From positions 1-38,167 of IMG/VR virus record IMGVR_UViG_3300044712_001366: 38,167 bases of DNA. The stretch is one strand, 5' to 3'. The notes beneath the pieces are model-generated. The model did not search any database. It was not told the DNA's origin and was given only the letters and a program-made list of their open reading frames with translations. Below are positions 5,327-37,096 of this stretch, one piece after another (position 1 is the first letter of the stretch; each line of letters starts with the position of its first letter). The position numbers and the translations under genes are program-made. Origin of the DNA: a virus.

Positions 5327-5806
5327 ATGAGAAAAGTACCAGCAGCCTCATTAACAGCCTCCAACGACTCGACCGCAAAAGGTCAGCCAGGACACTTGGC
5401 AAGCTATGAGGGAAATATTTACAAATACGTTCTAATTGAAGACATGAACGTTGCAAACGGCGATGTCGTCGAATATTCCGACACATCAGGTTATGAAGTC
5501 ACCAAAGACCGAGCAGGCGGCGCGTCCATCGGACGATCCGTTGCAGGTGTAGCAGTAGGAACCATCACAGATGGAAACTACGGATACATACTTGTGCAAG
5601 GTCGCCACACTGCCCTCAAAACAGATGGTGGCGTTGCTTCTGGTGATGCGCTTGTTCCTCATGCAACCTATGACGGAAAAGCTGACACCGCAACCGCAAG
5701 CTCAACCGCAACCAATACCGAAGCCCAAACCTTCGGGTACGCGCTAGCCGCTGACTCAAGCTCAGCGTCAACCGCTACCGTGGTCGCAATGATTCGTTGT
5801 TTGTAG
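5327..5806 (+). CDS. Head decoration or capsid-stabilising protein
   Basis: A 159-residue, Ala/Thr/Gly-rich beta protein immediately after the coat gene. The pattern of repeated short strands with Gly turns (VANGDVVEYSD, VASGDALVPHA) resembles the DUF2190/decoration-protein type that trimerises on the capsid surface. GAAAGGAC lies upstream of the ATG. The gene ends directly at a strong hairpin, closing the scaffold-coat-decoration group. It could also be a small head-completion protein. Confidence 0.7.
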   Translation: MRKVPAASLTASNDSTAKGQPGHLASYEGNIYKYVLIEDMNVANGDVVEYSDTSGYEVTKDRAGGASIGRSVAGVAVGTITDGNYGYILVQGRHTALKTDGGVASGDALVPHATYDGKADTATASSTATNTEAQTFGYALAADSSSASTATVVAMIRCL

Positions 5807-5855
5807 GATCATCACTGGGGGGAAGTTTACCTTTCTCTTCCCCCTGGAAATGATC
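5807..5855 (+). terminator. Stem-loop after the capsid genes
   Basis: An outer stem GATCAT/ATGATC (5807-5812 with 5850-5855) encloses an inner GGGGGAAG/CTTCCCCC stem (5818-5825 with 5837-5844). It begins right at the decoration-gene stop and ends 2 nt before the next start. There is no U-tract after it. It may be an RNA processing or stability element that sets coat mRNA levels against the downstream cassette, more than a true terminator. Confidence 0.6.
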
Positions 5856-5857
5856 GT

Positions 5858-7102
5858 ATGAATATCTTACTCGGAATACCATCATCTGGTCTTGTCAGAT
5901 CAAGCTTTGCACTTGATAACTTACCCTCCATTATTGCCTACACGAAAGCCCATTGTCCTGATGTCAACCTGTCCATTGCCTACCAAGAAGGCGTGCGAAC
6001 CGACAGAAATAGAAACATCATTCTCTATGAAGCCATAAACCAGGGGAATATTGACGCCATTCTCTGGCTAGATGAGGACATGCTCTATCCGCATCATATT
6101 GTAGAAGAGTACCTAAAAGTTGACGCGGATATCATCGGATGTCTCTACTTTAAGAGAGCTGCAAACTATGACCCTGTAGGATACAGGAGAGGCACAAACC
6201 CCAAAAAACCCTACATTGCCATTCAACCGCATGAGATACCAAAAGACGGGGTGATTGAAGTAGACGGGTTAGGCTATGGGGGCATGTTTGTCAAAATGTC
6301 TTTGTACAACAAAATGGGAGATGACAAGTGGACGCATTACGGGGCAAACTTTCACCTTCCGTTTCCCTCTGAAGGACGGTTAACCCACGACTTACAGTTC
6401 TGTGAGGATGCCAAAAAGTATGGTGCTACCATTCTTTTACACTGTGGCATACGACCCGGACACATTAGCGAGAAAGTGGTGACGGAAAAAGACTGGATCC
6501 CTCTCAAAAGCTCACCTAAATCACCCTCCTCACCTACCATAGCCGTGTTGTGTCCTTCGATTGACACGAACAAAGCACAACAGACGATGGAACAATTAAA
6601 GAAAAGCGCGGGCATGGAGGCGTCCTTTTACATCATTGAGGACAAAGAGCGTACAGGCTACGTAAAGACCGTCAATACTGCTGTACAAAAGATTGACGCA
6701 GACTATTATGTCTACACTGCAGAAGATGCCTATGGCGGGAAAGACTGGCTCAAGATTGGGTTTGAACACCTCAAAAAGTCTGGACAAGAACTGTTAGCCT
6801 TTAACGATGGAAAGTGGAATGGGCATTTAGCCTCGTTCGGACTTGTGAGCAAACAATTCTTAAAAGCAATTTACAACGGCAACCTCTTTTATGAGGGCTA
6901 CCACTCGCACTACGGAGATACTGAACTCACAGCTATAGCGATGCGAAACGCCCGATTTTGCCACACTCCAGAGGCTCTCATGATAGAAGTTGACCCAAAC
7001 AAACACGGCGTAAACCCGAAGGATAAAGAACTGTATAACCAAAGAAAGGTTGAACTCTTTGGTGATGAAGAGTACCGATGGATTCTGGAGAAGTTTTCAT
7101 GA
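5858..7102 (+). CDS. Two-domain glycosyltransferase-like protein
   Basis: A 414-residue protein that looks like two GT-A (nucleotide-sugar transferase) domains in tandem. Domain 1 (about 1-215) opens with a beta-strand, has an R-N-R box (TDRNRNII, about residues 49-56) and the acidic metal-binding site WLDEDM. Domain 2 (about 225-414) restarts with IAVLCPSI and carries YTAEDAYGG in the equivalent place. GT-A enzymes transfer sugars from nucleotide-sugars to acceptors; acceptor and sugar cannot be read from sequence. It is the first gene of a three-gene cassette set into the head genes. Plausible targets are host wall polymers, virion proteins or DNA. The ATG follows the hairpin with no strong Shine-Dalgarno. 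Confidence 0.7.
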   Translation: MNILLGIPSSGLVRSSFALDNLPSIIAYTKAHCPDVNLSIAYQEGVRTDRNRNIILYEAINQGNIDAILWLDEDMLYPHHIVEEYLKVDADIIGCLYFKRAANYDPVGYRRGTNPKKPYIAIQPHEIPKDGVIEVDGLGYGGMFVKMSLYNKMGDDKWTHYGANFHLPFPSEGRLTHDLQFCEDAKKYGATILLHCGIRPGHISEKVVTEKDWIPLKSSPKSPSSPTIAVLCPSIDTNKAQQTMEQLKKSAGMEASFYIIEDKERTGYVKTVNTAVQKIDADYYVYTAEDAYGGKDWLKIGFEHLKKSGQELLAFNDGKWNGHLASFGLVSKQFLKAIYNGNLFYEGYHSHYGDTELTAIAMRNARFCHTPEALMIEVDPNKHGVNPKDKELYNQRKVELFGDEEYRWILEKFS

Positions 7103-25994: not shown

Positions 25995-26030
25995 AGCAGA
26001 ATGTTACAATGGTACAATATGACAATAAAC

Positions 26031-26049
26031 AGCTACATACTGGGTTGGA
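26031..26049. repeat. Inverted repeat flanking the small leftward gene, left arm
   Basis: AGCTACATACTGGGTTGGA is the inverted partner of 26245-26263, matching at 17 of 19 positions. The two arms enclose 195 bp that contain the 38-codon gene at 26072-26188. It could be a closing stem in the minus-strand RNA, a pair of recombinase or protein sites, or the ends of an invertible segment. Confidence 0.8.
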
Positions 26050-26188: not shown

Positions 26189-26244
26189 GTTTTCACCTCC
26201 TTTCGTTGTCATGTCTCCGTGTGTATGGAGCAAGTGAGGACGGT

Positions 26245-26263
26245 TCCAACCCAGCGTGTAGCT
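26245..26263. repeat. Inverted repeat flanking the small leftward gene, right arm
   Basis: Inverted partner of 26031-26049 (17 of 19 positions). It lies between the long hairpin and the ribosome site of the 38-codon gene, so any minus-strand transcript that contains the gene contains both arms. Confidence 0.8.
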
Positions 26264-26273
26264 CTTCAAGCCA

Positions 26274-26367
26274 CAAAAAAACCTCTCTGTCTGAACCTGG
26301 AACGCGCGATATACTGCGAGTTTTGCTTGAAACTTTCGTTCCAAGCCCAGACAAAAAGGTCTTTCTA
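26274..26367 (-). ncRNA. 31-bp hairpin RNA starting at its own promoter
   Basis: Read on the minus strand, 26367-26337 pairs with 26304-26274 over all 31 positions: 23 Watson-Crick and 8 G-U pairs, no mismatch. All 8 differences between the arms are transitions that become G-U only in minus-strand RNA; in plus-strand RNA they would be A-C mismatches. The 32-nt loop holds a further AGTTT/AAACT hairpin. The 5' arm begins at the predicted transcription start. The 3' arm ends in seven U, so a free RNA of about 94 nt ending there is plausible. It may instead be the 5' leader of the 38-codon gene. Confidence 0.7.
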
Positions 26368-26372
26368 GGTAC

Positions 26373-26402
26373 AGTATATCACAATGTTTCAAGCATGTTC
26401 AA
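26373..26402 (-). promoter_or_regulatory. Extended -10 promoter reading into the long hairpin
   Basis: On the minus strand: TTGAAC (26402-26397), 18 bp, then TGATATACT containing an extended -10 (TGn plus TATACT at 26378-26373). Start is expected near 26366, the base of the hairpin. The -10 lies in CAGTATATC (26372-26380), whose inverted copy GATATACTG occurs at 26308-26316 inside the hairpin loop. Confidence 0.65.
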
Positions 26403-26445
26403 AATACCAAATAAATACCGAACTTGTCAAGTGGAATGGAAACCT

Positions 26446-27682: not shown

Positions 27683-27727
27683 ACACTTCTCTGTGTGTAA
27701 CCAATGAGTATACCACGAGGGGTCAAC

Positions 27728-27964
27728 ATGGAAGACAAACGAAAAAATCCGATCAACGAACTATCACGTTCTATTGCTCGATATTACGATCGCAAATACG
27801 CAAAAGGCATTTATCAACTATTTCTCAAGAACGATAAAAACTGGGAAAAACTCGGAAAAGATTTGGATATTACTGGAACCCGAGCAAAAGCTATTTTTAG
27901 CGACATTTTCAAAGAATTAGAAAACAAAACAGGAGCCGAAGCCCTTGTAGAGGAGGCAAGATGA
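27728..27964 (+). CDS. Small putative DNA-binding protein, first early gene
   Basis: A 78-residue basic helical protein. Residues about 35-60 (FLKNDKNWEKLGKDLDITGTRAKAIF) look like a helix-turn-helix, with DITGTRA in the recognition-helix region. I chose the ATG at 27728 (GAGGGG upstream) over the in-frame ATG at 27704. As the first full gene behind the early promoter it is the best local candidate for a regulator, perhaps of the early-to-late switch. It is too short and basic to be a CI-like repressor with its own oligomerisation domain. Confidence 0.6.
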   Translation: MEDKRKNPINELSRSIARYYDRKYAKGIYQLFLKNDKNWEKLGKDLDITGTRAKAIFSDIFKELENKTGAEALVEEAR

Positions 27965-28176
27965 ATTCTACTCATCTCACCAACAGCGCAGATTGTAGCG
28001 CTTGGGAACCCGTAACACAAGCGGTGTACAACCGCATGGATAACTACCAGAAAGCCCGAATGTGGCACTTCTGGCTTGATATGGGCTTAGTGTCAGAGAC
28101 ACAAGCACGAGAGAACGTTACCAACCTCATGACTGCAGAGACAATAATCTCTGTCTTCTTAGGAGGTCGACGATGA
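27961..28176 (+). CDS. Unknown early protein, 71 residues
   Basis: Not recognised. It has an amphipathic helical middle (NRMDNYQKARMWHFWLDMGL) and a hydrophobic C-terminal part (AETIISVFLGGRR) without a clear membrane span. Coupled to the upstream gene by ATGA, with GAGGAGG before the start, and coupled by ATGA to the next gene. Confidence 0.6.
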   Translation: MNSTHLTNSADCSAWEPVTQAVYNRMDNYQKARMWHFWLDMGLVSETQARENVTNLMTAETIISVFLGGRR

Positions 28177-28766
28177 AATACAACCCCGATGAATACGAAA
28201 CAGTAAAAAGCCGAAAAGCAAAGTTTTATCAAGTGTATCCAGATGGACGAATCATTGTAGAACTTATCTCTCCAGAAAAGATTGAAGGAGAAGCACTCTT
28301 TCGCGCTAGTGTGTACATGACTGCACAAGATCAAGAAAAAGGACTAGCACGTGGGGTTGGCTATGCCTACGAAATCCGCGATCGGCAAATGTCTATTAGC
28401 AACACTGGAAAAGAGTATGAAAGCGTGAACTATTCTTCCTGGACAGAGAACGCAGAAGAGTCCGCGGTTGGTCGAGCATTAGATAATGCAGGGTTTTCTG
28501 GAAACAAGAAACCCTCATTAGACGAAATGCAAAAAGCTGAACGCATGAGCAATAACTTCTCCAAACAGAAAACCGTTGAGTCCATGAGCAAAGACGAGCT
28601 AACCGCAGTCTTAACCGATGAACCCATGACCGATGGTCTTACGTCGATCTGTCCCCTACATAACGAACCGATGGTGCAGGGATTTGCTAAAAGTACAGGA
28701 GATCCCTATTGGTATCACAAAGTACAGCCCTACAACAAGATGTGCTTTGGTAAGGGGGTGAAATGA
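28173..28766 (+). CDS. Putative single-strand annealing/ssDNA-binding protein with zinc tail
   Basis: A 197-residue protein. The first 120 residues resemble a phage family linked to ssDNA annealing: a strand-rich opening (FYQVYPDGRIIVELIS), RASVYMTAQD, then the stretch SWTENAEESAVGRALDNAGFSG. That 'ENAE(T/E)SAVGRAL..AGF' helix is the hallmark I recognise. The C-terminal 40 residues hold a possible zinc site (ICPLHNEP...YWYHK...KMCFG). In a small early operon this would be the recombination or replication partner protein. The family name is from memory of the pattern, and the biochemical role is inferred. Confidence 0.55.
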   Translation: MKYNPDEYETVKSRKAKFYQVYPDGRIIVELISPEKIEGEALFRASVYMTAQDQEKGLARGVGYAYEIRDRQMSISNTGKEYESVNYSSWTENAEESAVGRALDNAGFSGNKKPSLDEMQKAERMSNNFSKQKTVESMSKDELTAVLTDEPMTDGLTSICPLHNEPMVQGFAKSTGDPYWYHKVQPYNKMCFGKGVK

Positions 28767-28984
28767 TCGCCAAACGCCAAGACGGTAAACCCATTCTTTG
28801 TGATTTTCACAACTCCTTTCTCTATGAAAAAGAATACGTCGATAAAGAGACAGGGGAAACGAAGAAATACAGCTATCACATCTGTTACCGCTACAGCGGG
28901 GAGATGTTGGAATCAGCCCTCTGCTATGGACACGGAGTCAATGGTTCCAAGTGGAAAGAAGCCTATCTTCCGGAGGACAAATAA
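28763..28984 (+). CDS. Unknown early protein, 73 residues
   Basis: Not recognised. It is beta-rich and aromatic (KKYSYHICYRYSG), with three Cys and three His (CDFH, HIC, LCYGHG) that could bind a metal. Coupled to its upstream neighbour by ATGA, with AAGGGGG upstream; the downstream gene's ATG shares its last base. Confidence 0.6.
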   Translation: MIAKRQDGKPILCDFHNSFLYEKEYVDKETGETKKYSYHICYRYSGEMLESALCYGHGVNGSKWKEAYLPEDK

Positions 28985-29130
28985 TGACCAACCTAAAAGA
29001 CGTGATCAGAGACATGATGCAAGATGCTAAACAGCGCTGGGAACTAGACCAGGAAATGCCCGATGATGAGAGACAGTATGCATCCTATGAACAGGTAATT
29101 GATGAAGTTACTGAGGAGTACATGCAATGA
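28984..29130 (+). CDS. 48-residue acidic helical protein
   Basis: A short gene with GGAGG before the ATG, and overlapping both neighbours (A of the ATG is the last base of the previous stop; ATGA with the next gene). The acidic product is helical (VIRDMMQDAKQRWELDQEMP). Coding is supported mainly by the coupling and strong ribosome site. Function unknown. Confidence 0.6.
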   Translation: MTNLKDVIRDMMQDAKQRWELDQEMPDDERQYASYEQVIDEVTEEYMQ

Positions 29131-29756
29131 CCTTTACTCCTGCCCCTGGAAACCCTAATAAACTCGTGAGGACTGAGTACAGTAGTAATGCTGGAAAGGG
29201 ATCCGCTCGGTCCTCACATCCGTTTTATGGGAACGCCTACATTAAGGTGATTTACAGAAAACGACATACGGACATGTTTCCAGGAGTTGTACTTTTCTTT
29301 GCCTTCCTATTCTTAAGCTCAGTAGTAACCAGAGCGGGCTGGAGGTTCTATACCAAGCTTGCCTCTAGCCCCCTGGTTGCTCCAGTAGTTGAGTTTCCAA
29401 AGTTAAGCTTGGTCTCAGTAGTACAGGCGAAAGAAGCCGTAGAAGTACCGAAAAAGGGATTGAATGTGGCTTGGGTTGTCGATGGTATTCATATGCTTGA
29501 AACCTCTAAAGGAACAGCACCACGAGGGCGACATGTAACGTGTAAAAACAAGGGATTAAGTAATGAGTATGGGTATAACCCTGGACAGTGTTTTGCAACT
29601 CACGAGGAAGCCACAAACGTAGTGAAGTCTTGGGTAAAGCGACAGTACGCACGATTCAATGATCTTAATACCACCTTGTGCTACTACAACACAGGGAAAG
29701 TGCTATCTACCTGTCAGTACAGCCAAGATTTTCATAAGGTAAAGGGGGTGAAATGA
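29127..29756 (+). CDS. Membrane-anchored lysozyme-like protein
   Basis: A 209-residue protein. It has a basic N-terminus, one transmembrane segment (about 51-67, FPGVVLFFAFLFLSSVV), and a C-terminal domain (about 111-205) that should lie outside the membrane. That domain reads VVDGIHMLETSKG, then NEYGYNPGQCF and TTLCYYNTGK, with four Cys likely in disulfides. The pattern resembles small lysozyme/transglycosylase-like domains, with E125 as the candidate acid. Placed in the early operon and lacking a holin partner, it is not the classical endolysin. It may remodel the wall or block superinfection. It starts with MTFTPAP, as does the product at 32797. Confidence 0.5.
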   Translation: MTFTPAPGNPNKLVRTEYSSNAGKGSARSSHPFYGNAYIKVIYRKRHTDMFPGVVLFFAFLFLSSVVTRAGWRFYTKLASSPLVAPVVEFPKLSLVSVVQAKEAVEVPKKGLNVAWVVDGIHMLETSKGTAPRGRHVTCKNKGLSNEYGYNPGQCFATHEEATNVVKSWVKRQYARFNDLNTTLCYYNTGKVLSTCQYSQDFHKVKGVK

Positions 29757-30172
29757 CATACCAAGTTACGAAAAAACAATGTCAAGAACAGATCAATGCG
29801 CGTAATTATGTCTGCGATAGATGTGGTCGCAAGATCGTTCCTCTAAAAACGGTAAATAACTCTGGTGAGCCAACATATTGGGCGGGATGTATGCACGGAC
29901 AAAAACAAAAAGGGGCTTGGGGGCATTTTACCAGTGGAGTACCAAAAAAGATTTACACGTTAGCTGTAAAACTTGTTTTAGAAGATGACATGGAATTTGG
30001 CATGTCCTACGAAGATAAAGAATTAGGCGATTTTGATTATGCTTTTCAAAATGCAGTACGTGAGGCATGCGACAAAGTAAGACAAATTGAATGGATGAAA
30101 GAAGAAAAACCAAGGTACACAAAAAAGAAATTAAAAGAAATGTATTTTGCTAAGAAAGTGGGGAAGAATTGA
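29753..30172 (+). CDS. Unknown early protein with zinc-finger start
   Basis: A 139-residue basic protein. C21-x2-C24 (YVCDRCGRK), followed by CMHGQ about 20 residues later, gives a possible zinc ribbon. The C-terminal half is a charged helix (EEKPRYTKKKLKEMYFAKK). It is coupled to the membrane protein by ATGA, with AAGGGGG upstream. Nucleic-acid binding is a guess. Confidence 0.6.
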   Translation: MTYQVTKKQCQEQINARNYVCDRCGRKIVPLKTVNNSGEPTYWAGCMHGQKQKGAWGHFTSGVPKKIYTLAVKLVLEDDMEFGMSYEDKELGDFDYAFQNAVREACDKVRQIEWMKEEKPRYTKKKLKEMYFAKKVGKN

Positions 30173-30237
30173 CCGAAAAACAGTGTACGGAAGGTTTGGG
30201 ACTGTGTGGGGATTGTATCTGGTTACTAGATAAGTAA
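30169..30237 (+). CDS. Possible 22-codon Cys-rich micro-gene
   Basis: A TTG start overlaps the previous stop (TTGA) with GTGGGGAAG upstream. The 22 codons include three Cys (KQC, LCGDC). It is followed by the structured region 30311-30476. Evidence is only coupling and the ribosome site, so it may be chance. Confidence 0.25.
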   Translation: MTEKQCTEGLGLCGDCIWLLDK

Positions 30238-30310
30238 TCTCTTGCTGATCCAACCAGGTGTATCTCAAAAGGGTATACGTGGGGGGTCAAGAAGAGAGGT
30301 TCTTTAACAT

Positions 30311-30476
30311 CTAAAGATTGAGAGAGGGAGTGGCGACTAGGGTGTTTGGAGGTTCTAGTCTAAAGGAATACTAGTCATTCTTAACCAGCAGTCTCGAACA
30401 TGATAGTGAGATTACCCTGCAGGGTTAACATCTCACTGGCACGAGAGCAATCTCGTCCCCCTCTCTGAGTCTTTAG
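30311..30476 (+). ncRNA. Multi-helix structured RNA
   Basis: In the 332-bp gap between two early genes, 30311-30328 (CTAAAGATTGAGAGAGGG) pairs with 30459-30476 at 17 of 18 positions (one G-U, one G-G mismatch). Inside are GACTAG/CTAGTC (30335-30340 with 30355-30360), AGGAAT/ATTCTT (30364-30369 with 30377-30382, 7-nt loop), and AGTGAGAT/ATCTCACT (30405-30412 with 30430-30437), capped by ACCC-TGCA-GGGT and flanked by TCTCG/CGAGA (30392-30396 with 30442-30446). CGAGA can instead pair forward (30442-30455, GCAA loop), and CTAGTC recurs in the second loop. This allows alternative folds. It is a regulatory leader or free RNA. Confidence 0.65.
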
Positions 30477-30504
30477 GTACACGTACAAAAGAAAGGAGCC
30501 AAAT

Positions 30505-30846
30505 ATGGCAAAAACACTAACAATTAGCGATGAGACGTACGAGCTCATTAAAGAACAACTTGGAAAAAGTACTGCATTTGAGGTCAACGAGCTTGATGAG
30601 TTCATTGGAAAAAAAGTGTTTATTCGCACCGTTACCTATCACTTAGTAGGTAGAGTTGTAAAGCGCATCGGGCAACTTTTTGAGCTACAAGAGGCTTCGT
30701 GGGTTGCAGATTCTGGGAGATTCATGCAAGCAATCAAGGAAGGAACTCTTGATGAAGTTGAGCCCGTTGGTCAGTGCTGGGTAAACATTGAAGCACTTGT
30801 TGATATGTACCCATGGAAGCACAACCTTCCTAAGGAGCAATCATGA
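30505..30846 (+). CDS. Conserved-type phage protein of unknown function
   Basis: A 113-residue protein. The opening (MAKTLTISDETYELIKEQL) resembles a small DNA-binding helix start. The middle (FIGKKVFIRTVTYHLVGRVVK) and the end (CWVNIEALVDMYPWKHNLP) match a pattern I recall from many phage early proteins of unknown role. AAAGGAG precedes the ATG. It is the first gene after the structured RNA, so that RNA may set its level. Confidence 0.7.
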   Translation: MAKTLTISDETYELIKEQLGKSTAFEVNELDEFIGKKVFIRTVTYHLVGRVVKRIGQLFELQEASWVADSGRFMQAIKEGTLDEVEPVGQCWVNIEALVDMYPWKHNLPKEQS

Positions 30847-31025
30847 TTGCGGCAAACATTAATACCCTGTACTGGGTCAATGGGTCGAGGTCGAGGTCGA
30901 GGTCGTGGTCGAGGTCGTGGTCGAGGTCGTGGTCGAGGTCGTGGTCGAGGTCGAGGTCGAGGTCGTGGTCGTGGTCGAGGTCGAGGTCGTGGTCGAGGTC
31001 GAGGTCGTGGTCGTGGTCGTATTAA
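30843..31025 (+). CDS. Overlapping Ser-Arg/Ser-Trp repeat frame
   Basis: This frame has the better start signals: ATGA coupling to the previous gene and AAGGAG upstream. After 14 ordinary residues it runs through the hexanucleotide repeat as Ser-(Arg or Trp) and then stops. The base that varies between repeats changes Arg to Trp here, so there is no sign of selection on this reading. It may deliver ribosomes to the Gly-Arg frame by a +1 shift near AATGGG (30879-30884). Confidence 0.35.
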   Translation: MIAANINTLYWVNGSRSRSRSWSRSWSRSWSRSWSRSRSRSWSWSRSRSWSRSRSWSWSY

Positions 31026-31068
31026 CAGTAAAACGCTCAAACATCCTCTTTTTAAGGGGATGAAATGA
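30880..31068 (+). CDS. (Gly-Arg)23 repeat protein
   Basis: A 62-residue frame: Met, 23 Gly-Arg pairs, then a 15-residue basic tail (INSKTLKHPLFKGMK). Every A/T difference among the repeat units falls in the third base of an Arg codon (CGA or CGT), so it is silent in this frame. Arg-Gly repeats bind RNA and nucleic acid in other proteins. The local ribosome site is weak (GGG), so translation may come from the frame starting at 30843. The stop overlaps a 13-codon frame (ATGA at 31065). Confidence 0.5.
   Translation: MGRGRGRGRGRGRGRGRGRGRGRGRGRGRGRGRGRGRGRGRGRGRGRINSKTLKHPLFKGMK
30883..31020 (+). repeat. Hexanucleotide tandem repeat (GGTCGW)x23
   Basis: Twenty-three uninterrupted units of GGTCGA or GGTCGT. 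The last base alternates in no simple order: AAA TATATATAAA TTAATAATTT. Units of six keep all frames open whatever the copy number. Short reads can mis-size such a repeat, so the number may differ from the true one or vary in the population. Confidence 0.97.
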
Positions 31069-31077
31069 ACGCTTTAC

Positions 31078-31127
31078 TACTCAATAAGCATACGAGTATT
31101 GAGTAAGACAAGAACAAAAAATATATA
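31078..31127 (+). promoter_or_regulatory. Promoter with overlapping operator before the replication gene
   Basis: A perfect 9-bp inverted repeat TACTCAATA / TATTGAGTA (31078-31086 and 31097-31105) overlaps the -35 TTGAGT (31099-31104). A 17-bp spacer leads to TATATA (31122-31127). The spacing is ideal for host polymerase, and the repeat is well placed to bind a repressor. The A-rich stretch 31111-31128 could also ease strand opening if an origin lies here. Confidence 0.6.
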
Positions 31128-31156
31128 AGAGTTTAGTAAGTCCGCTTGGGAGGGAC

Positions 31157-32116
31157 ATGAATACACGAGTGATACATACAAAGATATGGAAAGATGAATT
31201 CTATGCTGAATTATCGGTATCAGAAAAGCTTCTTTTTATTTACTTGATTACTAATGAACGTATAAGCGTTGCTCACTGTTATCAGATCTCCAACAGAGAA
31301 ATTCGTTTTGATACGGGTTTAACCGATGACCAAATAGAAAAAGCAAAAAGCAAGTTCCAAGAAGCACAAAAGATATTTTTTATGAACAATTGGGTTGTTC
31401 TTAAAAACGCAAGTAAGTATCAAAAGTACGAAGGAACGAAAAACGAAGAAGCACGAAGAAAAGTCTTTGCATTGATGAATGATACCGAACTCGAGTGGTA
31501 TAGCGTAGTATCTTCTGAAAAATATACCCCTATCAATACTGAGAACGTAAGTATTGCTACCCCCTTGAAGGGGTCTAGTAATCAACAATCAACAATCAAC
31601 AATCAGAAATCAGAAAAGGGAGAGAGTGCAGAGAGAGGGATTGCCAAGTCCTTAACGGACAACTTACCCCCCGACGTCATTCAAGAGCTTGCAACAAAAT
31701 ACCAGATACCACCAGAGACAATTGAACAGTACAAAACCTCGTACATGAGCTGGATTCAGGAAAAACCCAGAGACAAGAACCGCCAAGACCGCAACATGAA
31801 GGCAACGGTGGAGAATTGGATATCTCGAGACAAAAAAGACGGAAAACTCCACATACAGCACGTCGAGCAAGACCCAGAGTTTACTCAAGTGTTAGCACAT
31901 TACGAACACCGCATGAACACGAAACTCACCAATCTCTCAGAGCAAGCTAGGTACTGGAACGAGATGAAAACCGCAGGCTACACCCCAAAGCAGGTAGAGA
32001 TTGCGATTGATGAGATGTTGGATACACCTTTCTGGAAAGATAACGGCTTTACGTTCAAGCAAATTTCCAAAGAAATTCCTAAAATCCGCTACAAGCTCAT
32101 GAAAGGAGCCTCATGA
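31157..32116 (+). CDS. Replication initiator-like protein
   Basis: A 319-residue protein. The N-terminal 110 residues form a winged-helix-like domain of the phage replisome-organiser type: HTKIWKDEFYAELSVSEKLLFIYLITNER, then NREIRFDTGLTDDQIEKA. A Ser/Gln/Asn linker (about 135-165) leads to a helical C-terminal half with PPETIEQYKTSYMSWIQEKPRDKNRQDRNMKAT-type helices. Such proteins bind the phage origin and bring in the helicase loader. GGGAGGG precedes the ATG, and it has its own promoter/operator. The origin may lie in the upstream AT-rich strip or inside this gene. Confidence 0.7.
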   Translation: MNTRVIHTKIWKDEFYAELSVSEKLLFIYLITNERISVAHCYQISNREIRFDTGLTDDQIEKAKSKFQEAQKIFFMNNWVVLKNASKYQKYEGTKNEEARRKVFALMNDTELEWYSVVSSEKYTPINTENVSIATPLKGSSNQQSTINNQKSEKGESAERGIAKSLTDNLPPDVIQELATKYQIPPETIEQYKTSYMSWIQEKPRDKNRQDRNMKATVENWISRDKKDGKLHIQHVEQDPEFTQVLAHYEHRMNTKLTNLSEQARYWNEMKTAGYTPKQVEIAIDEMLDTPFWKDNGFTFKQISKEIPKIRYKLMKGAS

Positions 32117-32514
32117 ATCACATTGAATGGACGGAACTGGATGAGCAACTTGAGCAAGAAGAGGTAAGACGCCAAGAAGCAGAGTACAAGAGACTTTTAG
32201 GGCTGTCCCACACAGAGAGGCAGTACTTGGTTGAAGAATGGAATGTGTATTTCAAGCGCATGAATGAAGAAAGTCTTTATAAAAAAGCGTTTATGCACAT
32301 GAAAGAGGCGGTGCTAAAGGGGAATCCCATAGTCCTTCAGGAAGCAAAAGAGACGTTTGCAGAACTTAAAAAGACCGTACCCTTCATGCAAAAACCCTCA
32401 GCCTATGACCCTATCTGGCTGATGATGAAGTTCAAGAAAGCAAAGACAGAAATACTTTCACGAGATGACCGCAAAAAAGGATTTATCAAAGAAGTAAAAG
32501 AAGCGCTCTACTAA
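32113..32514 (+). CDS. Unknown helical protein after the replication gene
   Basis: A 133-residue, highly charged helical protein (EQLEQEEVRRQEAEYKRLL at the start). Coupled to the initiator gene by ATGA with AAAGGAG upstream. A helicase-loader partner is possible from position, but no Walker motif is present, so it is not a DnaC-type ATPase. Confidence 0.65.
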   Translation: MNHIEWTELDEQLEQEEVRRQEAEYKRLLGLSHTERQYLVEEWNVYFKRMNEESLYKKAFMHMKEAVLKGNPIVLQEAKETFAELKKTVPFMQKPSAYDPIWLMMKFKKAKTEILSRDDRKKGFIKEVKEALY

Positions 32515-32533
32515 CGAGCGGAAAGGAAGGCGT

Positions 32534-32800
32534 ATGCCAACAAAAAGAAAACTCACTAAAGAGGAAAAAGAAGCAATGCTTCAAGAATTCTATAAAGCAG
32601 CTAGAGAGATTGCTCACAAGATGGACAGAAACGAGCAAAGCGTTATTAAGACCATTAAGGAACACTATTGTGAACAACTGTACCACGCATATCTTGATGC
32701 GCAGTGGAAAGTAAGCAATAGACAGCACCTCATTATGGCGTTGATGGAAGACTTGAGAAACGCACAGAAAAACAGATGGTTCTTCTGGAGGAAGATATGA
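32534..32800 (+). CDS. Unknown basic helical protein, 88 residues
   Basis: Not recognised. It is rich in Lys and Glu, wholly helical (KEEKEAMLQEFYKAAREIAHKM), and ends in an aromatic/basic tail (NRWFFWRKI). GAAAGGAAGG precedes the ATG. Coupled to the DUF1064 gene by ATGA. Confidence 0.65.
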   Translation: MPTKRKLTKEEKEAMLQEFYKAAREIAHKMDRNEQSVIKTIKEHYCEQLYHAYLDAQWKVSNRQHLIMALMEDLRNAQKNRWFFWRKI

Positions 32801-33183
32801 CCTTCACACCTGCCCCAAAGCCTCTAAATTCGAGGATTTACCATCTGAAGCAGAACAAGTACCGAAACATCCGCCAAACCTATAACGGGTACTCCTACAT
32901 GTCCAAAAAGGAAGCACAATTTGCGTATGAGCTGGATATGCGCCTCAAGGCAAAAGAGATTGTGGGCTGGGAAAAGCAAAAAAAGATTGAACTGTTTGGA
33001 GAGCATGGACGGCATATTTGTAACTACTTTGTTGACTTTATTGTGTCCTATCCTGACGGAACCGAAGAATACATTGATGTGAAAAGCCCTACAACAAAAA
33101 CAGATGTATGGAGGCTCAAATGGAAGATGTTAGAGGACAAACTTGATGGCGACTGTACCAAAAAAATGACGGTATACGAATAG
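32797..33183 (+). CDS. DUF1064-type nuclease (PD-(D/E)xK-like)
   Basis: A 128-residue protein with the layout of the phage DUF1064 family. KKEAQFAYELDMRLKAKEI carries the first acidic residue (E39), YFVDFIVSYPDG the second (D80), and EEYIDVKSP the (E/D)xK pair (D94, K96). The fold is that of archaeal Holliday-junction resolvases and restriction-type nucleases. Likely work is trimming or resolving branched replication intermediates before packaging. The ATG at 32797, coupled by ATGA and with GGAGG upstream, is preferred over an in-frame ATG at 32776. Confidence 0.75.
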   Translation: MTFTPAPKPLNSRIYHLKQNKYRNIRQTYNGYSYMSKKEAQFAYELDMRLKAKEIVGWEKQKKIELFGEHGRHICNYFVDFIVSYPDGTEEYIDVKSPTTKTDVWRLKWKMLEDKLDGDCTKKMTVYE

Positions 33184-33199
33184 AGGAGCTAAAAAAGAT

Positions 33200-33559
33200 A
33201 TGAAGAAAATACCAATAAAACGAGGACAAATCTGGAAGCACAAACATACAGGGGAAATCGTTCATGTACAGAACAAACATGACGGTTCACGATGGACGCT
33301 CTTTTGCACGAAGAGAAAAGAATCTCACGCGACGACAGAATCAACCATCTACAAGTACTATGAACCTTTTACTCAGGCAGACGCTCAAGAGCTAGGCATT
33401 GTCCCTACGTATCGCACCATTTCTTATCCACTGCTGTACAAGCTCCCTGAAGATGTTTTTGTATTGCTTCCTAGACCTTGGTGGATACCTTTACGGCTGT
33501 ATACCTTCATCATGAAACACCTAGTACAACCCTACGAAAGGAGTAGTCATGAAAATTAA
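33200..33559 (+). CDS. Unknown early protein, 119 residues
   Basis: Not recognised. The N-terminal half is a small beta domain (KRGQIWKHKHTGEIVHVQNKH) like the SH3-like modules seen in many phage early proteins. The C-terminal half is aromatic and basic (LLPRPWWIPLRLYTFIMKHL), perhaps membrane-associated. GAGGAG lies about 14 nt upstream of the ATG. Confidence 0.6.
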   Translation: MKKIPIKRGQIWKHKHTGEIVHVQNKHDGSRWTLFCTKRKESHATTESTIYKYYEPFTQADAQELGIVPTYRTISYPLLYKLPEDVFVLLPRPWWIPLRLYTFIMKHLVQPYERSSHEN

Positions 33560-33659
33560 AGCATTGCGAACTATCGCGGAACTATTTGGATATACCCTTG
33601 TTTCGATCTACGAGACATCTAAAGGAGAGCGATTAGTGTTTCAGGAGAGAACCACATGA
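33549..33659 (+). CDS. 36-residue early protein
   Basis: A short gene overlapping the end of its upstream neighbour by 11 bp, with GAAAGGAG at the right distance from its ATG. The product is one helix followed by a short strand pair (TLVSIYETSKGERLVF). It is coupled to the next gene by ATGA. Function unknown. Confidence 0.55.
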   Translation: MKIKALRTIAELFGYTLVSIYETSKGERLVFQERTT

Positions 33660-33793
33660 AAGAACACCTGCCCCACGAAGACGGCAAAATACTGGTAAAG
33701 ATCCTTCTAGGTATTGGAGGAGCAATAGTGTTAGAACTCTGTCTTCTGTCTATTGATGTTGTTACCTATCTTCTGAGTAAAGGGGGAAAGTGA
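33656..33793 (+). CDS. 45-residue single-span membrane protein
   Basis: A short gene with AGGAGAG upstream and ATGA coupling. Residues about 12-40 (LVKILLGIGGAIVLELCLLS and on) form one hydrophobic membrane segment flanked by Lys. The stop overlaps the GTG of the next gene. It may be an inhibitor of a host membrane process, but nothing identifies it. Confidence 0.6.
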   Translation: MKEHLPHEDGKILVKILLGIGGAIVLELCLLSIDVVTYLLSKGGK

Positions 33794-33954
33794 AGTACGA
33801 ACGCATATCTAACGGAGTCTTTAGAAAAACAAGTACTCGTGAAACCGAGAGGAACTACTGGAATCCGTATACTCTGTTTCTCTTGATTTGTGAATTATTA
33901 AGGGGAAGAAAGGAACGGTATGAAAGATACAGATGTTATAGCAGAACTCGATAA
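33790..33954 (+). CDS. 54-residue basic protein with GTG start
   Basis: The GTG overlaps the previous stop (GTGA), with AAAGGGGG about 6 nt upstream. The product is basic (nearly one third Arg/Lys) with a hydrophobic patch (YTLFLLICELL). It overlaps the next gene by 35 bp, which is long for this genome and lowers confidence. The overlapping C-terminus is Arg/Tyr-rich. Confidence 0.4.
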   Translation: MKYERISNGVFRKTSTRETERNYWNPYTLFLLICELLRGRKERYERYRCYSRTR

Positions 33955-34252
33955 TTTGAAACTACGGATCATGCTCGAAGGCATTGAGCGTCCACTGACT
34001 GAAGTGGAGCGTTTTGATGCTTGGGTAGATGAGGTTGTAGGTAATAACATACCGAACAATGTCACGGTATGCTTTCCGCGAACATACGCAACCTGTACGG
34101 AACTTGTTGATCGTGTGAGCGACCTCTATCACCAAAAACATCGCGATGAAAAGGAATACCACAAAAATATGAGAGAGACTATGACAATCATTAGAGAAGC
34201 CGTGCATATGGCTGTGTATTTCGTGGAAATGACTAAGAAAGGAAACAGATGA
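33920..34252 (+). CDS. Unknown early protein, 110 residues
   Basis: Not recognised. It is acidic and helical at both ends, with a short strand-rich middle (NVTVCFPRTYATCTELVDRV) containing two Cys. AAAGGAA precedes the ATG; coupled to the next gene by ATGA. Confidence 0.65.
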   Translation: MKDTDVIAELDNLKLRIMLEGIERPLTEVERFDAWVDEVVGNNIPNNVTVCFPRTYATCTELVDRVSDLYHQKHRDEKEYHKNMRETMTIIREAVHMAVYFVEMTKKGNR

Positions 34253-34791
34253 AAAATAGTACAGTAGTAGAAGAGATTGTTGAAGAACTTATCCAAGAGA
34301 TAGGGTATCAGGTAACTAGAGATTACGAAGGAAAAGGCGGGATATGGGAAGGGATGAGCATTAGTAACGTAAAGTCGCGAGACAAGGCATTACACGCGCT
34401 CTCTACCCTAGAAGCACAGATACGGGAAGAGAAAATCAATGAAAATACCTCAGACGGCTATCACACATTCAAAGAATTGTATGAGTTCCGATTGCTGTAC
34501 AACGCAGGCTTGTTTAATGATCTTGCACGAAATCCTCGCTACAAAGTTCACAAGAGCAAAAAGCACCATGATGGTGAAGACTGTTCTGGTGGGGGGTGGT
34601 TTATTGTCATGGCAACACTACCCACAGGACAAATCAGCAACCACTACGAACTCAAAGATTGGGACTTATTTCATTGTCATGAGCAAAAAGTTGCCGATAC
34701 ATGGGATGGACATACTTCTCAAGATGTCGCAAAAAGACTAAGGGAATGGTTAACGCCACACAATCCACTGAGAGCACAGGAGGAGCAATGA
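34249..34791 (+). CDS. Phage protein with YHTF...WDGHT domain
   Basis: A 180-residue protein. The N-terminal 60 residues are acidic helices. The C-terminal 120 carry a pattern I know from many phage and mobile-element proteins: DGYHTFKELYEFR, GGGWFIVMATLPTGQISNHY, then WDGHTSQDVAKRLREW. It is a compact alpha/beta domain of unknown function, usually found among small early or hypermodification genes. AAAGGAAA lies before the ATG, coupled by ATGA on both sides. Confidence 0.7.
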   Translation: MKNSTVVEEIVEELIQEIGYQVTRDYEGKGGIWEGMSISNVKSRDKALHALSTLEAQIREEKINENTSDGYHTFKELYEFRLLYNAGLFNDLARNPRYKVHKSKKHHDGEDCSGGGWFIVMATLPTGQISNHYELKDWDLFHCHEQKVADTWDGHTSQDVAKRLREWLTPHNPLRAQEEQ

Positions 34792-34964
34792 CACCCGAAG
34801 AACTTATTGACCTCGCCGACCAAGTACGTAAAGACTACCCCCAGTGGATGCAGTACTTAGATTTCACCGCAATGACACTATTGCTTCACTTCCCTGATGA
34901 GGAGAATGAACAGTGGATACCCGTAGACCAGTTACTTAAAAAGGAAGAGAAAGGAATGGTATGA
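34788..34964 (+). CDS. Unknown acidic protein, 58 residues
   Basis: Not recognised. The start at 34788 is fixed by AGGAGG and ATGA coupling; the open frame upstream is antisense-like sequence of the previous gene. Acidic and helical, with aromatic residues in YPQWMQYLDF. Confidence 0.6.
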   Translation: MTPEELIDLADQVRKDYPQWMQYLDFTAMTLLLHFPDEENEQWIPVDQLLKKEEKGMV

Positions 34965-35221
34965 CATTTAGAATTTCAAAAGGATTCACCGAATACGACA
35001 TAGATAGATACCAACAACAAGTAGGCAAAGAAGCAATCAGCGACCAGCTCCGCCTAAAACTTCGAGATATTGCTTATGAATTAGCACAAAAGATTGTTGA
35101 TTCCTCAGATTTCTCACAAGAGATACAAACACGAGCTGAAGAAGATGGAACACGAACAATCATAGTAACCAGTGTGTTTCGTGTACGCGATGAGGCACTA
35201 CCGAAGAAAGAGGAGAAATGA
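34961..35221 (+). CDS. Unknown early protein, 86 residues
   Basis: Not recognised. Long helix (KEAISDQLRLKLRDIAYELAQKIV), then a strand pair (TRTIIVTSVFRVRDE) and a Lys/Glu tail. AAAGGAA lies upstream of the ATG, with ATGA coupling on both sides. Confidence 0.6.
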   Translation: MTFRISKGFTEYDIDRYQQQVGKEAISDQLRLKLRDIAYELAQKIVDSSDFSQEIQTRAEEDGTRTIIVTSVFRVRDEALPKKEEK

Positions 35222-35418
35222 GAAACAAACCAACCGAAGAAACATTTGAAGGTGAATACCTCCGCTCTATTTGTTTTACGTGTGGAAAGAAGCATGGAAG
35301 GCTACCTACACGCGCGATAGGAATCTGGGAGGATACGTGTGAACTCTGTGGAAAGAAAGCTTTCTGTGCTGATGCAGGGCATGATTTCGGGATATATAGA
35401 AAGAAAGAGGAACAATGA
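35218..35418 (+). CDS. Small zinc-ribbon protein
   Basis: A 66-residue protein with two CxxC knuckles (C19-x2-C22 in ICFTCGKK and C41-x2-C44 in TCELCGKK), plus Cys50 and His55, the classic zinc-ribbon spacing. It is probably nucleic-acid or protein binding. AGAGGAG precedes the ATG; coupled by ATGA on both sides. Confidence 0.7.
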   Translation: MRNKPTEETFEGEYLRSICFTCGKKHGRLPTRAIGIWEDTCELCGKKAFCADAGHDFGIYRKKEEQ

Positions 35419-35816
35419 AACAACACATTACGCCAAAACAATTAGAAGAACTCTCAGAACAAGGAAAAGAAAAGTTACGAGCGTGGTGGAAACCACAAGA
35501 GGGGGACTGGTTTATGTGTCTATGCCATGGTGAAAAACATCTCTTGCATGATGATAATGACGAAGGCTGCGAGGTTGGAAATGATTATTTCCACAGGTTT
35601 AATGACATTGAAAAACCATTACCTCTTCTCTCGATTGGACAGATGATTCAATATCTGGATGAGCATAGAGATAAAGATGATTTTGTTCCGCTAGCAATAG
35701 ATAAAGGTGAGTATGAGTGGCACGTTTACTCGGTAAGCAAAAAACCTAGTTATAGATCGGTAGAACTCTGTGATTGTCTCTGGGAAGCCGTAAAAAAAGA
35801 ACTGGAGGAGGAATGA
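35415..35816 (+). CDS. Conserved-type phage protein of unknown function
   Basis: A 133-residue protein. Opening ITPKQLEELSEQGKEKLRAWWKPQEGD, middle LPLLSIGQMIQYLDEH and end SVELCDCLWEAVKKELEEE form a pattern I recall from many phage early regions. No catalytic motif was seen; two Cys-His pairs (CLCHGEKH) might bind metal. AGAGGAA upstream, ATGA coupling. Confidence 0.7.
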   Translation: MKQHITPKQLEELSEQGKEKLRAWWKPQEGDWFMCLCHGEKHLLHDDNDEGCEVGNDYFHRFNDIEKPLPLLSIGQMIQYLDEHRDKDDFVPLAIDKGEYEWHVYSVSKKPSYRSVELCDCLWEAVKKELEEE

Positions 35817-36049
35817 TAGGCACGACACAAACACTTGAAGAATCGCTTCAAGAAGCCATGAAGAAGTACAGGATTAGAGAAATTCACTTTGAGCCCGATA
35901 CAACACCAGAAGAACGAGAAGAAAGCAAAAGATTACTTGAAAGCGCTCTGTGGATGGGAATCATTAAACACGACTTTGATATTATGGGATTAAAAAAGAC
36001 GAAAAATGATCGTAAAACAGCGGGAAAATCAAACAAAAGCAACCTATAA
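35813..36049 (+). CDS. Unknown early protein, 78 residues
   Basis: Not recognised. Charged helices (TLEESLQEAMKKYRIREI; TTPEEREESKRLLESAL) and a basic Lys/Asn-rich end. The start at 35813 has GGAGGAGGA and ATGA coupling, better than an in-frame upstream start. Confidence 0.6.
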   Translation: MIGTTQTLEESLQEAMKKYRIREIHFEPDTTPEEREESKRLLESALWMGIIKHDFDIMGLKKTKNDRKTAGKSNKSNL

Positions 36050-36064
36050 CAGAAAAGAGACTAT

Positions 36065-36268
36065 ATGACCATAGACCACTACAGTATCCGCTTATCAGGC
36101 AAACGAGAGCATGAGATTGTGATAGACAAACCCCTCAGTATGGATCAAGAAGTTACCCTAACAGTGAGAGGACAAGTGATAGAGGTAAAAGATACGACCA
36201 ACAACGATGGAACAGTAAACAGGTGTTACACCATTCGAGGAGAGATAGCCGAGGAGGTAAAGGAATGA
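36065..36268 (+). CDS. Small beta-rich early protein
   Basis: A 67-residue protein with alternating strands (YSIRLSGKREHEIVIDKP; EVTLTVRGQVIEVKD; YTIRGEIAEE), which could fold as a small barrel. AGAAAAGAG upstream. Coupled to the next gene by ATGA. Function unknown. Confidence 0.6.
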   Translation: MTIDHYSIRLSGKREHEIVIDKPLSMDQEVTLTVRGQVIEVKDTTNNDGTVNRCYTIRGEIAEEVKE

Positions 36269-36657
36269 TATTACTTTTTTTTACGATAGTACTTCTGTCC
36301 TTGATTTTGAATAGAAAACCTGACGAAGAGCATCATCCAGATAAAACGTGTTCTGGAAAGAATGAAGGATGTATCTATTGCTCAAGTTGGAATGCCCCTC
36401 TATGTCCGTATCATGACAAGAAGAAAAGAAACAAACCTGTTCGCTATGTGAATATTTTTCCTGGGTATGAATTTGGCAGTGATGGGAGTATGTGGAGTTT
36501 GAGTTACAACAGAACTGGACAAAGAAAACAACTAAAACCCATTTACAAAAAAGATAAGCACTATTTTTGTTATCTTCTCATGAAACAGAGGAAACGAAAG
36601 CAGATTATTATTCATGTTGCATTACAACGCTATTTTCCTGAAGAAGGAGAAAAATAA
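36265..36657 (+). CDS. Membrane-anchored NUMOD4-like protein without nuclease domain
   Basis: A 130-residue protein. An N-terminal hydrophobic helix (about 1-16) is followed by a Cys/His cluster (TCSGKNEGCIYCSS...CPYH, about 28-50). The C-terminal half reads YVNIFPGYEFGSDGSMWSLSYN...KQLKP...HYFCYLLM...IIIHVALQRYF. That half resembles the NUMOD4 DNA-binding module of HNH homing endonucleases, up to the helix that normally leads into the HNH domain. The HNH itself is missing. It may be a remnant or a repurposed DNA or tRNA-type binder at the membrane. GAGGAGG upstream, ATGA coupling. Confidence 0.5.
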   Translation: MILLFFTIVLLSLILNRKPDEEHHPDKTCSGKNEGCIYCSSWNAPLCPYHDKKKRNKPVRYVNIFPGYEFGSDGSMWSLSYNRTGQRKQLKPIYKKDKHYFCYLLMKQRKRKQIIIHVALQRYFPEEGEK

Positions 36658-36839
36658 TGACTCACTCTGCCCAAGTTCAAGCACTTCTAACCTGGATTCT
36701 TCAACACCAGAAACAGTTAAGTGATGCCAAAAAGTATAATCTTCAGTTATCTGTGAGTAGCACACAAGTAAAAGGGAAATTCACTGATGTATTTCTTGAT
36801 GAAGTGGAGCAGTTGAAAAATCCCGAAAATATGCCATAA
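36657..36839 (+). CDS. Last early gene, unknown, 60 residues
   Basis: Not recognised. Helical start (VQALLTWILQHQKQLSDAKK), then a short sheet. The ATG shares an A with the preceding stop, and GAAGGAG lies upstream. It is followed after 28 bp by a strong terminator, ending the early operon. Confidence 0.6.
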   Translation: MTHSAQVQALLTWILQHQKQLSDAKKYNLQLSVSSTQVKGKFTDVFLDEVEQLKNPENMP

Positions 36840-36915: not shown

Positions 36916-36984
36916 AGCGTCCGGTAGGATACGAACCTACTTTAAGTCTTTTCCGGAGACAAGTTTTCTATAAACTACGGACGC
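36916..36984 (-). tRNA. tRNA-like gene with shrunken D-arm (anticodon possibly GGA)
   Basis: On the minus strand the 7-bp acceptor (GCGTCCG/CGGACGC) and 5-bp T-stem with a canonical loop (GTAGG-TTCGTAT-CCTAC) are perfect. The D-arm is GTTT/AAAC with only a 5-nt loop and no GG pair. The anticodon arm has 4 bp plus a T-T mismatch and loop CCGGAAA. That resembles a Ser-GGA loop except that the invariant U33 is C, and there is no long variable arm as Ser tRNAs need. The body is 68 nt. CCA is not encoded. Either a degenerate tRNA or a specialised tRNA mimic. Confidence 0.6.
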
Positions 36985-36999
36985 AATATTGGTTTTTGA

Positions 37000-37065
37000 G
37001 CCGCTGTTGGGATTTGAACCCAATACCAAGAGACTACCAATGCTCCAGTTCTGCCTAGCAGCGGC
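37000..37065 (-). tRNA. Second tRNA-like gene, atypical core
   Basis: On the minus strand the acceptor (GCCGCTG/CAGCGGC) and T-arm (TTGGG-TTCAAAT-CCCAA) are perfect, but only 35 nt lie between them, about six fewer than normal. The element ATTGGTA within GGAGC...GTCTC looks like a D-loop (A, GG, A). As an anticodon loop it would read UGG with a bulged stem. No single standard fold fits, so an anticodon cannot be assigned. It lies 15 nt from the other copy, same orientation, with TATAAA about 6 nt upstream of the 5' end as a possible -10 box. Confidence 0.5.
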
Positions 37066-37096
37066 ATAATTTATAGAAAGAATTTTGAAAAAACCC

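Follow-up and report, generated by a model that had tools for sequence, protein, structure and literature searches.

A segment in the early operon of a phage genome is predicted to fold into several helices closed by a long stem, just upstream of a conserved gene. We asked whether this fold exceeds what chance would produce, whether it controls the gene that follows, as the alternative pairings noticed in a first-pass annotation had suggested, and what else it could be.

Setting of the locus

The window, that is, the whole stretch of DNA analysed, comprises 38,167 bases and represents a complete phage genome, its two ends being identical over 127 bp. It encodes a P22-type portal, TerL, a tyrosine integrase and a DnaD-like replication protein, and the phage is a temperate one of the P22-portal type. 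IMG/VR and INPHARED contain no close relative of it: the portal has a sole distant relative in IMG/VR, a fragment with 36% identity, and the capsid reaches at most about 29% identity in the two collections. The capsid resembles those of phages of Myxococcus and Alphaproteobacteria, whereas the replication protein resembles those of Bacillota phages.

The early genes (27704-36839) lie on the plus strand, mostly with 4-nt overlaps. The folded domain, 166 bases at 30311-30476, has the same orientation and sits between a gene ending at 30172 and one starting at 30505; it occupies most of the non-coding stretch of this 332-nt gap. The gap had been described as the largest in the early operon, which is nearly right, a larger one of 360 nt being found at 33560-33919 when open reading frames of 50 aa or more are considered. 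The flanking genes at 29753-30172 and 31157-32116 had no relatives in the IMG/VR search. Part of the gap may be a small Cys-rich frame (30169-30321, plus strand) with a TTG start and an in-frame TAA at 30235-30237, its pieces being 30154-30237 and 30238-30321 and its last codons entering the closing stem. Over 30154-30321 it reads CTEGLGLCGDCIWLLDK, a stop and then SLADPTRCISKGYTWG..., and a check for hidden small proteins found no homologue of it.

A stable predicted fold of several helices

The closing stem, P1, pairs 30311-30328 with 30459-30476 on the plus strand at probabilities of 0.93-1.0, and these hold at 1.0 with context up to 600 nt. Its 18 positions comprise exactly the 16 Watson-Crick pairs, one G-U and one mismatch first reported: 30311-30319 pair with 30468-30476 (including U30318-G30469) and 30321-30328 with 30459-30466, on either side of a G30320/G30467 mismatch. 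Only one other long-range stem of comparable 18-position length occurs in the genome (26031/26263), and none in two whole-genome dinucleotide shuffles. Downstream of the integrase gene we also observed a 22-nt inverted repeat (26028-26049 and 26245-26266) and, on the minus strand, a long hairpin region that folds strongly (26209-26420); these are possibly the attP region.

Three inner hairpins had been described within P1, one of them capped by a palindrome, and all three are present, two firmly and one more weakly. P3 (30405-30437, plus strand) has 8+4 pairs with probabilities mostly of 0.88-0.95, and its cap is the 12-nt palindrome ACCCTGCAGGGT (30414-30425), among five perfect ones of this length in the genome. 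P4 (30438-30458, plus strand) carries a GCAA tetraloop of the GNRA type, abuts both P3 and P1, and has pair probabilities of 0.70-0.86. Together with P1, these two hairpins are stable whatever the context in folds of 400-600 nt. The P2 region (30335-30376, plus strand) is weakly defined in constraint folding: GACTAG at 30335-30340 pairs with CTAGTC at 30371-30376 with a probability of 0.36 and with 30355-30360 with a probability of 0.03.

The minimum free energy of 30309-30476 was -64.4 kcal/mol, against -46.1 +/- 4.1 for dinucleotide shuffles (z -4.4), none of 1000 shuffles reaching it; folding 30300-30490 gave a z of -4.48. The stability expected of a structured non-coding RNA beyond its composition is thus present, and the predicted fold looks real rather than a product of chance. 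In a coarse genome-wide scan, in which z is noisy and the ends of the domain are hand-picked, the domain ranked 7th among 908 tiled windows. The fold is therefore exceptional but not unique, being one of several strongly folding places. The most exceptional in that scan (5713-5880, plus strand; z about -7.5 with 14 shuffles) spans the gap after a gene ending at 5806, downstream of the capsid gene, and is probably a terminator. Another strongly folding place lies near two tandem tRNA-like genes on the minus strand (36916-36984 and about 37000-37066); ARAGORN reports a 'tRNA-Ser(GGA)' of 69 nt lacking a long variable arm and misses the neighbouring tRNA-like sequence. The description of the domain as a multi-helix structured RNA is accordingly borne out by the fold, as a prediction.

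Alternative pairings and the downstream gene

Does the domain act as a switch of the downstream gene? The two segments said to have mutually exclusive partners do have them in the sequence, and the alternatives lie within 1.3-2.5 kcal/mol, but they are minor. With nearest-neighbour energies, TCTCG (30392-30396, plus strand) pairs with CGAGA (30442-30446) with a probability of 0.12, versus about 0.8 for P4, so that the two alternatives account for 12% and 3% of the ensemble. Multi-partner 5- and 6-mers are marginally enriched, 4-6% of shuffles having at least the observed number, which is near chance. The competing pairings, taken alone, need not mean a switch.

The gene at 30505-30846 (plus strand) encodes a conserved phage protein of 113 aa with the motifs FIRTVTYH ... 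WxADSGRF ... EVEPVG. Its family comprises 41 IMG/VR loci at 28-74% identity and 4 loci in GTDB contigs; it matches no Pfam, PHROGs or PADLOC family, and comparison with solved structures returned only E>0.05. The Shine-Dalgarno sequence of the gene, AAGGAG (30493-30498, plus strand), lies outside the fold, 17 nt past P1; folds of 400-600 nt leave it mostly unpaired, with its last G in a local 3-bp hairpin. Nothing terminator-like was seen in 29700-31300, and no promoter stands out. An expression platform of the riboswitch kind, with a terminator or a sequestered Shine-Dalgarno sequence, is thus absent. So is an aptamer conserved upstream of homologous genes: in the closest homologues the gap between an upstream reading frame and the gene is about 10-50 nt, the upstream DNA is mostly coding, and the folded RNA was found neither by blastn nor by the covariance model R1 in the loci or records of the 41 homologues. 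The nearest relatives hence keep the gene and lack the pairings, the outcome that the first-pass annotation had named as refuting its reading; this tells against a conserved link to the gene at 30505. On the sequence and the modelled folds, the riboswitch- or attenuator-type control first put forward is not supported, and nothing shows that the RNA switches the downstream gene.

The domain might still be a cis-acting leader of the cassette at 30505, whether a riboswitch, an attenuator or a protein-binding site altering translation or decay through the P2 and P4 alternatives. Its position immediately upstream of the gene, the small energy differences between partners and the slight enrichment of multi-partner segments are in keeping with this. 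However, the accessible Shine-Dalgarno sequence, the lack of a terminator, the low share of the alternatives and the homologues of up to 74% identity in which a protein gene stops a short way upstream and the RNA is missing make it rather unlikely. A lineage-specific leader for this gene is possible.

Hexamer arrays beside the downstream gene

The reading frame that follows the 113-aa gene (30843-31025) consists of TCG-NGG hexamers encoding Ser-Arg or Ser-Trp. Of 37 members of the FIRTVTYH family (the window and loci L002-L051), 27 have arrays of Ser-[Arg/Trp/Gly] hexamers directly downstream of the gene. The arrays have 8-46 units, nearly always with one fixed Ser codon (TCG, TCT, AGC, TCA or TCC) plus NGG; the exceptions are L022, which mixes AGC and AGT, and L018, with one TCG among AGC. 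A and C at N never occur in the same array, so Arg is AGG or CGG, never both. The arrays often come with a short leader peptide, for example MIQLANVNTLW, and the order of Arg, Trp and Gly differs between them. In L007, L008, L040, L004 and L009 there is an array upstream of the 113-aa gene, either as well as or instead of a downstream one; in L007 and L040 arrays flank the gene on both sides. The use of both TCN and AGC codons points to Ser-X as the frame that is kept. The arrays and the 113-aa gene look like a conserved two-gene cassette, and a first literature search found no such repeats in phages. As an anomaly, the hexamer arrays are stronger than the folded RNA.

Searches for relatives of the domain

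The absence of a described family with this layout was confirmed in Rfam 15, where nothing reached the gathering score and two irrelevant sub-threshold hits were the only ones at E<=10. No relative was found by blastn against phages and plasmids, exact 18-23-mers taken from three parts of the RNA had no match in IMG/VR, and GTDB contigs (84,980 genomes) contain no exact copy of a 21-mer from its inner part. Model R1, a single-sequence covariance model of little reach and without a known positive, recovered the window itself and chance-level fragments in two genomes when run on 44 sources, 38 whole records and 957 sampled genomes spanning three phyla. These absences are weak negative evidence, as close relatives of the window may be missing from the collections searched. 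Judged on its sequence, the domain appears to be an orphan structured RNA, and as no homologue was found its pairs have no covariation support.

Within the phage genome the domain occurs once, and neither coding nor terminator features were seen in it. Its antisense matches to the rest of the phage include no perfect one of 13 nt or more and a single one of 12 nt, near the number expected by chance; this argues against a simple antisense RNA, as far as targets in the phage itself are concerned.

Could the element act as DNA? It might be a replication-linked hairpin, a recombination site or the dead remnant of a MITE-like insertion bounded by terminal inverted repeats of 15-16 bp and flanking TA. 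In favour of this, the ends here read TA-AAGATTGAGAGAGGG ... CCCTCTCTGAGTCTT-TA, and the DnaD-like replication gene follows about 680 nt further on. Both strands fold, the minus strand almost equally well (-61.1), a further point for a DNA element and against the RNA reading proposed below. On the other hand, single-strand DNA parameters give a less exceptional fold than RNA parameters (z -3.1 versus -4.4), and the single copy in the phage, together with the absence of the inner 21-mer noted above, departs from the multiple copies of a MITE. The only iterons are those of the coding hexamer array, DnaA boxes are not nearby, and GC skew has no sharp minimum here. We consider a DNA-level element unlikely. 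More improbable still is that the sequence between the genes is neutral or decaying and owes its stability incidentally to inverted repeats, for example as what is left of a broken small gene and a recombination scar: the in-frame stop of the upstream frame, the similar z of several other places and the lack of conservation would fit, but a near-perfect 17-pair stem with two independent hairpins would hardly persist neutrally in a packed operon, nor does any shuffle reach its energy.

A candidate RNA domain and its proposed release from the early transcript

We tentatively propose, as a plausible reading of the modelled fold that falls short of a probable one, that 30311-30476 forms an RNA domain of its own, which RNase III-type cutting of P1 would set free from the early transcript. 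In favour of such a self-contained domain are its stability beyond all 1000 shuffles, the firmly predicted P1, P3 and P4, its orientation with the early genes, the free ribosome-binding site, its filling of most of the non-coding stretch and the stronger z with RNA than with DNA parameters. P1 would close it, P3 and P4 would stack against P1, and P2 would be a weak or switchable arm. The helix of roughly 17 bp formed by P1 is long and thus a natural substrate for a double-strand-specific RNase; an RNase III-like enzyme acting on it in the polycistronic mRNA would cut the domain out, or the domain would be protected within that mRNA. GNRA loops and palindromic loops are typical protein- or RNA-docking parts. 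Once freed, the domain may serve as a small non-coding RNA that probably binds a protein or else associates with itself via the palindromic P3 cap. Its transcription, its processing and its action in trans are what we infer. A more doubtful extension of this model is that the domain represents a new class of small phage non-coding RNA, processed at the closing helix and with a host or phage protein as its target in trans; the P3 cap would perhaps join two copies into a dimer.

If expressed, the domain would be one more unclassified structured RNA in phage early regions, where, to our knowledge, few RNAs have assigned functions. As it has no relatives, it supports no general claim yet; its value is that of a candidate to recheck once closer phages have been sequenced.

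Comparison with known systems

The lack of an Rfam match separates the domain from all the RNA classes that it recalls, namely phi29 pRNA, riboswitches and attenuators, GOLLD and ROOL, and the AbiF antitoxin RNAs. The pRNA of phi29 is a phage packaging RNA of about 170 nt. The domain has a similar length, a closing helix and possible intermolecular loop contacts, whereas its phage has an ordinary TerL and a P22-type portal. With riboswitches and attenuators it shares a place upstream of a gene and alternative pairings, but it lacks their terminator, their sequestration of the Shine-Dalgarno sequence and conservation with the gene. A retron msr-msd is not indicated, as no RT family was found among the window proteins scanned, operon neighbours included.

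GOLLD and ROOL are ornate RNAs of 659 to over 800 nt found near tRNA islands (PMC12286853). Unlike them, the domain has 166 nt and belongs to an early operon, with the tRNA-like genes about 6.4 kb away; like them, it is a phage- or prophage-encoded folded RNA with no assigned function and possible self-association (PMC12286853). RCd22, from a C. difficile prophage, is a type III-like AbiF RNA antitoxin with abiF motifs and an Abi_2 protein as its binding partner (PMC12373285). Such a partner was not found: no window protein scanned against Pfam matches Abi_2, and the neighbouring gene is without a family match. What the domain has in common with RCd22 is that each is a phage-borne structured RNA placed in an operon with a protein gene (PMC12373285).
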